Shown here: positions 38,770 through 40,185 of the stretch, one piece after another
Position numbering within the stretch: position 1 is the stretch's first letter
Layout: the number at the start of each line of letters is the position of its first letter
Notes under the pieces: generated by a model
What the model was told of the DNA's origin: nothing
Seen by the model: only the letters and a program-made list of their open reading frames with translations
Database searches by the model: none
Origin: an uncultured Sphingorhabdus sp.
GTDB taxonomy: Bacteria; Pseudomonadota; Alphaproteobacteria; Sphingomonadales; Sphingomonadaceae
NCBI GenBank assembly: GCA_947501885.1
Contig: CANMXN010000001.1
Coordinates: 1,240,001 to 1,304,000 of the forward strand
Direction: 5' to 3'
Length of the DNA stretch: 64,000 nucleotides
Program-made: the position numbers and the translations under genes

Positions 38770-39471
38770 CTATAATTTGCGTCCAACCCAAATAACAGGC
38801 CCAATAATGACAAGCGCCGCACCATCAACATCGCGCCAATTGCTATAACTCGGATTATCGCTTATCACATCAACATGTTTGTTCGGCCCAAAAGATAATC
38901 GCTTCACCATCAACACATCATCCATGCGTATCACATAAATACCATCGCGCATGGCTCCTGTTTCATGACACGCCACCATAATATCATCACCATGCGACAA
39001 TGTTGGCAGCATACTATCGCCATCTACCGTGACAATAGAGAGGTTTTTCTTGTCATAAGGAAATTGCCTTAGCCATTTCGGATCAAAAGCAATTTTCCCT
39101 GCCAGTGACTCGGACTGTTCCAAATTACCAGCACCCGCAGAAACACCCACCGATAATTTAGAAATTAATTCCAATCCGCCATTGCCATCATCAATAGGTG
39201 CGCCCAATATCTTCTGATTCACCCCATAATAGCGGGCCAAGATATGTCGGTCCTTCTCTGCCAAATATTTTGGTGTCCCGCGCTCAATATATTGCTGAAT
39301 ATAGGATGGGTTACGGCCAATAAGATCTGATAGGCCTTTGTAATCATCACCTTTATTCTTAATAAGGGTTTTTAGATTATCTCTATAGTGACGGCTTTGA
39401 CCGCCATATGATGGGTCCATTGGTTCGGGCATCATTGGTGGCTGCGGTGTATTTTTCTCTATTTTGGACAT
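38770..39471 (-). CDS. S24 family (LexA/CI-like) transcriptional repressor
   Basis: A 233-residue repressor. Residues about 30-95 form a helix-turn-helix region (DYKGLSDLIGRNPSYIQQYIERG). The C-terminal half is an S24 peptidase domain: the nucleophile Ser is in DGDSMLPTLSHGDDIMV near 165 and the Lys is in VIRMDDVLMVKRLSF near 205. A cleavage site would be in the linker around SVGVSAGAGNLEQSE, with Ala-Gly present. Its own promoter (TTGTCT-17-TATAGA) puts the transcript start at about the ATG, so the message may be leaderless. Related S24 proteins are common in sphingomonads. Confidence 0.88.
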   Translation of the reverse strand: MSKIEKNTPQPPMMPEPMDPSYGGQSRHYRDNLKTLIKNKGDDYKGLSDLIGRNPSYIQQYIERGTPKYLAEKDRHILARYYGVNQKILGAPIDDGNGGLELISKLSVGVSAGAGNLEQSESLAGKIAFDPKWLRQFPYDKKNLSIVTVDGDSMLPTLSHGDDIMVACHETGAMRDGIYVIRMDDVLMVKRLSFGPNKHVDVISDNPSYSNWRDVDGAALVIIGPVIWVGRKL

Positions 39472-39477
39472 TATTTT

Positions 39478-39506
39478 TCTATAGCAATAGGATTTTTCCT
39501 AGACAA
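39478..39506 (-). promoter_or_regulatory. Promoter of the S24 repressor gene
   Basis: On the minus strand, TTGTCT (39506-39501) and TATAGA (39483-39478) are separated by 17 bases. The expected start of transcription is about 39471, which is the A of the proposed ATG. Operator 1 lies inside the spacer. Confidence 0.6.
39488..39501. promoter_or_regulatory. Operator 1 (TAGGA-N4-TCCTA)
   Basis: TAGGATTTTTCCTA is a perfect palindrome with 5-bp arms and a TTTT centre. It lies in the spacer of the repressor promoter, a position expected for autorepression. Confidence 0.6.
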
Positions 39507-39507
39507 G

Positions 39508-39521
39508 TAGGATTTTACCTA
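39508..39521. promoter_or_regulatory. Operator 2 (TAGGA-N4-ACCTA)
   Basis: TAGGATTTTACCTA repeats the operator 1 pattern with one mismatch between the arms. The centres of the two sites are exactly 20 bp apart, about two DNA turns, so dimers would bind on one face and could cooperate. Confidence 0.6.
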
Positions 39522-39529
39522 TCACAAAT

Positions 39530-39544
39530 GTTCTTATTATGTTC
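39530..39544 (+). promoter_or_regulatory. Candidate LexA box (GTTC-N7-GTTC)
   Basis: GTTCTTATTATGTTC exactly matches the direct-repeat LexA box known in alphaproteobacteria (GTTC, 7 bases, GTTC). It overlaps a possible TATTAT -10 element for the rightward genes. The pattern is short, and one or two chance matches are expected in 64 kb, so the position rather than the match is the support. Confidence 0.45.
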
Positions 39545-39618
39545 TCATTGATTCGAGAAGGAATATACCGCCGCTTAATACCCCAATAACCAGACAAGCA
39601 TGATGATAGGAGATAAAT

Positions 39619-39795
39619 ATGCATATGCTACGGATAGTAGAAAAATTTTTGCGCGATCATGATATCCCACCAACCAAATTTGGACGGATCGTCGCCAAAG
39701 ACCCCAGACTTGTACTGGATATGCGATTAGGGCGTGAAGTGCGTACACCGATGCAACGTAAAATTATCGCTTATATTGAGAGCGTTGGAGAGTGA
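39619..39795 (+). CDS. Small helix-turn-helix-like protein divergent from the S24 repressor
   Basis: A 58-residue protein beginning MHMLRIVEKFLRDHDIPPTK, with FGRIVAKDPRLVLDMRLGRE and RTPMQRKIIAYIES. The helical pattern suits a small DNA-binding (Cro-like) fold, and similar small proteins occur in sphingomonads. A perfect AGGAG six bases before the ATG supports the start. It is shorter than usual annotation cut-offs. The next gene begins 3 bases after the stop, so they form an operon. Confidence 0.75.
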   Translation: MHMLRIVEKFLRDHDIPPTKFGRIVAKDPRLVLDMRLGREVRTPMQRKIIAYIESVGE

Positions 39796-39798
39796 AAT

Positions 39799-40185
39799 AT
39801 GAATCAATTGCGCCATAATTTCACAAAAATAGACCGCTTATCAGCTCAGATAATTGCGTATATTGAGCAATTCTCTGCACAATATAGAACGCTAGGCCAA
39901 GATGATTCCATAAGCTGTCAGATTGAGAATGTGGAGATAAATGATTGGCAGAGCGCGACATATGATGGCGAGAAGCACCACTATCTGATAAAAATATATT
40001 GGAGCGAAGAAAATCCAATAATAAATAGCAATGATTATAAGACCAAATTAGCATCAGGTCTAAATGACTATGAATTTATTTTGTCCAAATCATTTGTTGC
40101 AGATATCAATATTAGCCAGCTCCAAATCATGGATAGGAATATCTGGAAACTCAATATCGAAACGCTTATCATCCATGAAGAATGA
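39799..40185 (+). CDS. Hypothetical protein downstream of the small HTH-like gene
   Basis: A 128-residue acidic, soluble protein with a helical start (IDRLSAQIIAYIEQFSAQY) and a strand-rich remainder (HYLIKIYWSEENP, EFILSKSFVADINISQLQIM). No motif recognised. Its start is 3 bases after the previous stop. It is convergent with the acidic membrane protein gene. Being in an operon with a likely regulator and behind the repressor control region suggests a regulated accessory function; that is inference. Confidence 0.65.
   Translation: MNQLRHNFTKIDRLSAQIIAYIEQFSAQYRTLGQDDSISCQIENVEINDWQSATYDGEKHHYLIKIYWSEENPIINSNDYKTKLASGLNDYEFILSKSFVADINISQLQIMDRNIWKLNIETLIIHEE

Follow-up and report, generated by a model that had tools for sequence, protein, structure and literature searches.

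The closest described system is the FddR unit of Francisella, in which an S24 repressor of phage type has become fixed in a bacterial lineage, is autoregulated at a palindrome and is described as controlling essentially itself and one divergent gene (PMC13148647). Its operator is given as GTG-N11-CAC, against TCCTA-N6-TAGGA at the locus studied here; Francisella is described as having no canonical LexA SOS response, whereas here lexA is present and its box lies in the same intergenic region; and GANTC is conserved here, whereas none is mentioned for FddR in the text sections consulted (PMC13148647). Unlike in the FddR unit, the divergent product here is a small protein resembling a helix-turn-helix (HTH) regulator and is spread over a whole family. 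The next closest system is UmuDAb/DdrR of Acinetobacter, where a LexA-like repressor gene is always found beside a divergent gene for a small protein and the binding site overlaps -35 elements. The passages on these genes add that UmuDAb also represses several umuDC genes, that Acinetobacter has no LexA and that DdrR has no homology to other proteins (PMC7273328). There is also a likeness to promoters controlled by GcrA and CcrM, at which GANTC lies in a GcrA-preferred context near the promoter; the passages concerned do not describe such a site combined with an S24 operator (PMC7987155, PMC4287350), and methylation dependence at our locus is predicted. The locus is set apart from FddR and UmuDAb/DdrR in that LexA coexists with the S24 repressor at one locus, GANTC is conserved, the arrangement reaches across the whole family and the partner is a small HTH-like protein. 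Among the publications listed in literature searches, none deals with this locus as far as titles and opening lines of abstracts show, and none of the papers searched for four operator strings contained them.

The locus resembles the lambda CI/Cro switch, which has an S24 repressor, a divergent small HTH gene, operators between the two and a leaderless repressor message; here the HTH of the small gene is predicted, the operators are putative and the message is probably leaderless. It differs from lambda in that the 10 neighbors tested include no phage genes, a single conserved core takes the place of OR1-OR3, LexA and GANTC are putative inputs, and there are variants led by a Shine-Dalgarno (SD) sequence. 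An earlier note on the window (the whole 64,000-nucleotide stretch of DNA that was analyzed) had proposed a CI/Cro design. The autoregulatory layout, with divergent genes and a shared region that are directly observed, and the CI-type protein agree with this; for the small protein, an HTH is a prediction of no more than moderate confidence. We give a probability of about two in three to the following reading: the CI-like S24 repressor controls its own synthesis and has its divergent promoter region as essentially its only target, and the chromosome has co-opted it and connected it to SOS and, probably, to the cell cycle. Conservation among relatives points to a chromosomal switch kept across one Sphingomonadales family, with a shared control region that has a single conserved core over the repressor -35 element; between this core and the small gene lie GANTC and, in some lineages, a LexA box. 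When re-read from the sequence, the promoter, spacer, ATG, both palindromes and their 20-bp offset were all at the positions given by the earlier note. The features are as follows.

38770-39471, minus strand: S24 (CI/LexA-type) repressor, 233 aa (Pfam, PHROG, alignment and fold matches)
39471-39469, minus strand: repressor ATG (sequence)
39477-39472, minus strand: six nt between -10 element and ATG (sequence)
39483-39478, minus strand: -10 element TATAGA, with transcription predicted to begin at 39471, the A of the ATG (leaderless; sequence)
39500-39484, minus strand: promoter spacer, 17 nt (sequence)
39506-39501, minus strand: -35 element TTGTCT of the repressor promoter (sequence; CTTGTCTAGG plus a readable repressor frame in 75 loci)
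39488-39501, no strand: proximal N4 palindrome TAGGATTTTTCCTA, TAGGA-N4-TCCTA, the first of the earlier note (sequence, genus and family counts)
39508-39521, no strand: distal N4 palindrome TAGGATTTTACCTA, TAGGA-N4-ACCTA, the second of the earlier note, 20 bp from the proximal one (sequence, genus counts)
39492-39515, no strand: family-wide conserved 24-bp core ATTTTTCCTAGACAAGTAGGATTT (matches in family loci)
39497-39512, no strand: dyad TCCTA-N6-TAGGA over the repressor -35 element, main operator candidate (family-wide conservation)
39500-39505, plus strand: candidate -35 element TAGACA for the small gene, opposite the repressor TTGTCT (sequence)
39530-39544, plus strand: LexA box GTTCTTATTATGTTC, GTTC-N7-GTTC (motif search, genus and family conservation)
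39550-39554, no strand: CcrM methylation site GATTC within the GcrA-preferred TGATTCG at 39549-39555 (family conservation)
39609-39612, plus strand: SD-like GGAG of the small gene (sequence)
39619-39795, plus strand: small Cro-like gene, 58 aa, predicted four helices (divergence, profile matches, AlphaFold2)
39799-40185, plus strand: second gene of the divergent unit, 128 aa (ORF; similar ORFs in relatives)

The repressor matched Pfam Peptidase_S24 (E 4.5e-17) and PHROG 4, transcriptional repressor (E 4.8e-30). Its predicted structure has two domains (mean pLDDT 74), with lambda and 186 repressors as the best fold matches, followed by LexA. An HTH was predicted at helices 44-50 and 57-64, from the structure model and the PHROG match only. 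A putative cleavage site, A112-G113, and the putative catalytic residues S153 and K190 were invariant in seven aligned sequences; Ala-Gly cleavage and Ser/Lys catalysis are presumed here by carrying them over from LexA and lambda CI. Together, the HTH, the S24 domain, the Ser/Lys dyad and the Ala-Gly site indicate a repressor of the CI/LexA type, and the PHROG and fold matches agree with the CI-type assignment made earlier. Identity with LexA itself was considered and rejected: no LexA model was among the NCBIfam matches of the protein (all below cut-off), and Pfam gave no LexA DNA-binding domain. The true lexA lies elsewhere in the genome (L040). A PDB sequence search with the repressor returned nothing at E 0.001.

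The window's genome is Sphingorhabdus-like (2.65 Mb), and the sole named match of the repressor, at 74% identity, comes from an uncultured Sphingorhabdus. A repressor match was found in 55 of 61 relatives. The genus set comprised the 30 best loci, all same-genus, from 37 same-genus genomes; in the other seven genomes the match was missing, fragmentary, broken or only distantly related. The pattern CCTA-C-WWGTCT-AGG was present in all 30 loci, as were the distal form TAGGNNAAATCCTA (read on the other strand; exact TAGGA-N4-TCCTA in 24) and the proximal form CTAGGA-N4-TCCW (exact TAGGA-N4-TCCTA in 12). The family set comprised 90 loci from 90 genomes and 34 genera, made up of the 30 best profile matches and 60 picked for genus spread, a non-random draw in which related species are not independent. 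CCTAGACWWGW was found in 85 of these loci. Counts on 85 leave out the five loci without the anchor CCTAGACWWG, namely G250 (where a phage splits the locus and the 17-mer described below lies elsewhere), G038 (which belongs to another family), G234, G101 and G285. An S24-type HTH frame follows in the right direction in 81 of the 85 anchored loci, and four gave no frame by pattern.

Across the family, 34 of 85 loci, from 13 genera, carried an exact proximal N4 palindrome; the distal one was found in seven loci, all of the Sphingorhabdus genus and none outside it. Taken by itself, the window has no excess of the palindromes over chance (two matches with at most one mismatch, 0.95 expected; 21 of 100 shuffles reach two), and they were judged real because they are conserved in relatives, not because of their frequency in the window. 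When the 24-mer ATTTTTCCTAGACAAGTAGGATTT was searched for without any anchor, it was exact in 50 of 90 loci and had no more than three mismatches in 79 (34 genera), whereas the best of 450 shuffled regions had eight mismatches; these shuffles, and those for the LexA-box and GANTC tests, keep base composition only. Genus-weighted information was 1.2-2.0 bits at the free positions of the core and mostly below 1 bit in the flanks (exceptions at -15, -8 and +26); profile positions 0-9 are fixed by the anchor pattern, hence the anchor-free repeat on all 90 loci. The two palindromes had been proposed earlier as autoregulatory operators. Both are present, but the distal one is confined to the genus and the family-wide element is the N6 dyad with its flanks. 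As judged from conservation, the ancient element is this TCCTA-N6-TAGGA dyad with flanks, lying on the repressor -35 element.

An element that overlaps a -35 may be conserved partly for RNA polymerase. The core could even be kept mainly as overlapping divergent -35 elements, with the palindromes as side effects: TTGTCT and TAGACA lie on opposite strands inside it, and the A at 39524, 17 bp beyond TAGACA, is conserved in 79 of 85 family loci. We regard this as unlikely. Conservation over 24 bp is unusual for a promoter, both TCCTA/TAGGA arms, of no use to -35 elements, are among the fixed positions, and the 18 relatives with AAGTCT or ATGTCT have lost the TTG of the -35 yet keep the CCTA-N6-TAGG arms. 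For the small gene, TAGACA and the conserved A fit a promoter, although the -10 is poor, its T is missing and none is convincing. A generic sigma-70 scan did not report the repressor promoter, because the scan demands T at -10 position 6; it listed one other site (1.4 expected). A T at this position is described as often absent from alphaproteobacterial promoters, and more than 80% of Novosphingobium promoters are reported to have a -10 that ends without T (PMC8407463). The -10 forms at the repressor loci (TATAGA, TAGGAA and TATGGA) match the Novosphingobium report in ending without T.

Of 199 family genomes, 145 contained a 17-mer from inside the core, TTCCTAGACAAGTAGGA, with no more than one mismatch; they represent 75 of 96 genera, and the other 54 genomes were without it at this threshold. 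There were 146 sites in total, against eight for the reversed pattern, and the 17-mer occurred once per genome in 144 of the 145 positive genomes. Sequence counts thus give the putative operator essentially one address per genome, and because the element occurs once per genome, the circuit would be local and self-acting rather than a global regulon. A genome-wide search for TAGGA-N4-TCCTA, which the earlier note had suggested, yielded in the window's genome (G000) one exact palindrome besides the locus itself, at C6:175, 59 nt before an unrelated small ORF that is lipoprotein-like by eye. With one mismatch there were 29 sites, one of them the distal palindrome of the locus. Among the 13 of the other 28 that were viewed, most were intragenic; L073 lies 46 nt upstream of a short ORF resembling purS (by eye), and L066, L069 and L076 lie 100-195 nt before an ORF, yet inside another gene. 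Exact TCCTA-N6-TAGGA had two sites in G000, the second at C1:829878. A genome-wide operator regulon was rejected on the few exact sites and the mostly intragenic near-matches (13 of 28 viewed); weak extra targets are possible. Outside the genus, 19 order-level regions with S24 relatives were compared (L077-L095; repressor ORF not found in two): several had TAGGA/TCCTA-like sites upstream (by eye), and the small gene was found only in G038.

A CI-type repressor with a divergent small gene could also be what is left of a prophage, or of a gene-transfer-agent immunity region, functionless beyond self-repression. Related S24 proteins occur in 253 phage records, and weak small-protein matches lie inside three transposable-phage records. 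The best phage match of the repressor, however, has approximately 35% identity, and the small protein only weakly matches three cyanophage records. No phage gene was recognized by Pfam among the 10 neighboring genes or ORFs, as the earlier note had stated; these neighbors are housekeeping genes, surface-polysaccharide genes or genes without assignment, a setting different from that of an active prophage. The conservation of a single-copy core over 34 genera likewise argues against a functionless remnant, which we consider improbable.

A start 7 nt past the -10 element, as read from the sequence, would coincide with the A of the repressor ATG. Among the 75 loci (29 genera) that had CTTGTCTAGG and a readable repressor frame, four of the 85 without a repressor frame being left out, the distance from the first T of TTGTCT to an in-frame ATG was 33-36 nt in 50 loci from 19 genera. 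This is the distance at which a promoter with a 17-bp spacer would start transcription, and the best non-overlapping 4-nt window elsewhere holds 14 of the 75 loci. The remaining 25 loci did not have this geometry; in 23 of them the in-frame ATG was at 54-60 or 96-102. Among the genus loci, all 12 with TTGTCT had a -10-like hexamer at 16-17 bp and then an ATG 6-7 nt on, and 18 of the 30 loci had AAGTCT or ATGTCT instead of TTGTCT. GGAG was nearby in all 18 of the latter (in G017 after the first ATG), against one of the 12 TTGTCT loci. These comparisons support selection for leaderless geometry in many lineages, including that of the window, and its replacement in others by a longer leader or an SD-like form. 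The leaderless message that had been called probable is consistent with the geometry conserved over 19 genera, but the form is not universal.

The small gene was divergent from the repressor in all 30 genus loci (29 by pattern, and G034). Of 296 genomes in the order, 205 gave a match to its protein profile; G038 is the only one of these outside a single family. No significant match to the small protein was found in Pfam, PHROGs, NCBIfam or PADLOC. The AlphaFold2 model (mean pLDDT 72) has helices at 3-13, 18-25, 29-36 and 43-56, and the protein has invariant basic residues. Its top three fold matches, VanUg twice and C.EcoT38IS, HTH regulators by class, were non-significant (with E values such as 5.4 and 9.0); the fourth was HNF-1A. 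An HTH is predicted with moderate confidence, and the product would probably bind DNA. The claim of a small HTH-like divergent gene held for the divergence, which is kept together with the repressor, but for the HTH there are a moderate-confidence model and non-significant fold matches.

With fold evidence this weak, the locus could instead be an FddR-like unit, in which the S24 protein is a simple autoregulated DNA-damage repressor, the divergent gene is its only output, and the small protein, instead of being a Cro-type antagonist, is an effector or (like DdrR) a co-repressor in a circuit that is no bistable switch. Such a unit has precedents, since Francisella FddR is described as controlling itself and one divergent gene (PMC13148647), and umuDAb is described as always having the ddrR gene in divergent orientation beside it, with an operator that the -35 elements overlap (PMC7273328). 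However, the four predicted helices in an HTH-like arrangement and the invariant basic residues fit DNA binding by the small protein, and we rate this alternative a serious one that falls a little short of an even chance.

ORFs of approximately 100-130 aa similar to the second gene follow the small gene in many genus loci (by eye). Searches with the second gene itself up to E 1 found nothing in Pfam, NCBIfam or PADLOC, and its best PHROGs match had E 0.095. Relatives of the small protein were also found on plasmids: NZ_CP155750.1 359223-359381, on an 853-kb Sphingomonas replicon (49% identity), and NZ_CP094518.1 19996-20145, on a Bradyrhizobium plasmid (44% identity). Because of these matches, the small protein is neither purely chromosomal nor confined to the order. 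Six paralogous S24/small-gene cassettes were observed in the genus (L097-L102, in G024, twice in G028, and in G031, G032 and G025); in these, the small gene, the LexA box and GANTC are kept and the operator has diverged.

The LexA box and the GANTC site had no mention in the earlier note. GTTC-N7-GTTC is stated to be the alphaproteobacterial LexA site (PMC7987155), and the box at 39530-39544 was its sole match in the window (0.76 expected). It was exact in 29 of 30 genus loci and had one mismatch in G001. Over the family, 33 of 85 loci had an exact box, in either orientation, in the stretch that separates the core from the small gene (0.17 loci on average and 2 at most after shuffling), and half-sites at other spacings, from 3 to 12, each occurred at most once in the 85 loci. 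The same motif precedes recA, lexA and radA in the window's genome (genes above NCBIfam cut-offs) and genes homologous, below cut-off, to a Y-family polymerase, a UvrD/PcrA-type helicase (cut by the locus end) and RmuC. Genome-wide there were 36 matches, against 63 for the reversed pattern; there is no enrichment by count, and the box is meaningful by position only (30 of the 36 matches inspected). The promoter region has the host-type LexA box of an SOS-regulon member, but because the exact box is present in only 33 of 85 loci, the predicted SOS wiring is not universal.

Read toward the small gene, the box has the form GTTC-N7-GTTC in Sphingorhabdus and g44, and GAAC-N7-GAAC in the other genera that have it. 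At G000:C1:759975 (L044), radA and a gene that looks patatin-like by eye lie divergently on either side of a single LexA box. Another GTTC-N7-GTTC box was seen at the start of a small ORF at G000:C1:1234466 (L048, around 1501), approximately 45 kb from the locus and close to a portal-like gene that may belong to a gene transfer agent cluster (by eye).

All 30 genus loci have GANTC, and 84 of the 85 family loci have it in the interval from the core to the small gene (shuffled sequences gave 15.8 loci on average and 27 at most); of the other N-centered palindromes, the best reached 25 of 85. Its N varies (T38, G29, A28 and C11 over 106 sites). The passages concerned describe TGATTCG as the GcrA-preferred form, caution that LexA motifs can overlap GANTC and report no preference for an extended motif in Brevundimonas (PMC7987155). 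At our locus GANTC overlaps the box in six of 33 loci and is not only part of it, because it is kept in 51 of the 52 loci without an exact box. TGATTCG alone is not rare in the genome (121 sites, 137 for the reversed pattern). The window's genome has a GcrA-family gene and a gene with a RAMA domain, a CcrM candidate, so that both the conserved GANTC and the gcrA and candidate ccrM genes expected for a GcrA/CcrM promoter were found.

In the preferred reading, the repressor would bind the core (in Sphingorhabdus perhaps as two dimers) and shut both its own leaderless transcript and the divergent promoter. Upon DNA damage, RecA would trigger self-cleavage of the repressor. In lineages with the box, LexA would also leave, and the small Cro-like protein and its neighbor would be expressed only with both repressors gone. 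CcrM methylation, perhaps via GcrA, would couple the small-gene promoter to replication, and the small protein would probably act back on the same operator, like Cro or Ner, or assist repression, like DdrR. If this is true, a large alphaproteobacterial family has a conserved phage-style switch beside LexA rather than replacing it, and the locus is a natural case both of SOS and cell-cycle methylation combined at one promoter pair and of captured phage repressors becoming host regulators, a route proposed by the authors of the FddR study (PMC13148647). A single-target operator would make the circuit easy to test.

The 17-mer was also found in 16 IMG/VR contigs. Three of these look like chance matches, and 13 (approximately 11 distinct, as two pairs look alike) carry the operator and cassette genes. 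In these 13 (L203-L205, L207-L209 and L211-L217), phage DNA lies in the small gene or within approximately 100 bp of it; 11 have a Mu-type transposase and the other two are short. They look like host DNA beside a transposable phage. In G446 and G451 the small-gene match lies at the far contig end, as expected if the phage sits inside the small gene. Among the 199 family genomes, 31 have a Mu-type transposase domain. In the four that were inspected a transposase lies near the 17-mer. The small gene of G418 is intact, whereas a phage end interrupts that of G115 and of G342, and in G250 the phage end lies directly before the small-gene ATG, with the 5-bp repeat GCCAA at both flanks (L221-L224 for G250, G115 and G342). 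The small gene looks like an insertion hot spot for transposable phages, which partly break it; this is a lead outside the main claim.

A wider reading, which is tentative and which we find rather doubtful, would have a family-wide domesticated CI/Cro-type switch with a single target, joining S24 self-repression, LexA/SOS and CcrM methylation in one region as a two-state module that reads DNA damage against replication stage; transposable phages would repeatedly insert in or beside the small gene, either targeting it or because its breakage favors the lysogen. A scan of the virus collection with the window's small protein found no relative, by a method that reaches close relatives only, because the 17-mer scan did find contigs with small-gene relatives. 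Weak matches to the small-protein profile were observed inside phage contigs at G448:C1:27805-27978 (E 2.8e-5), G450:C1:29152-29265 (E 2.7e-8) and G455:C1:12757-12882 (E 2.1e-4), and transposable phages may carry their own relative of the small protein.
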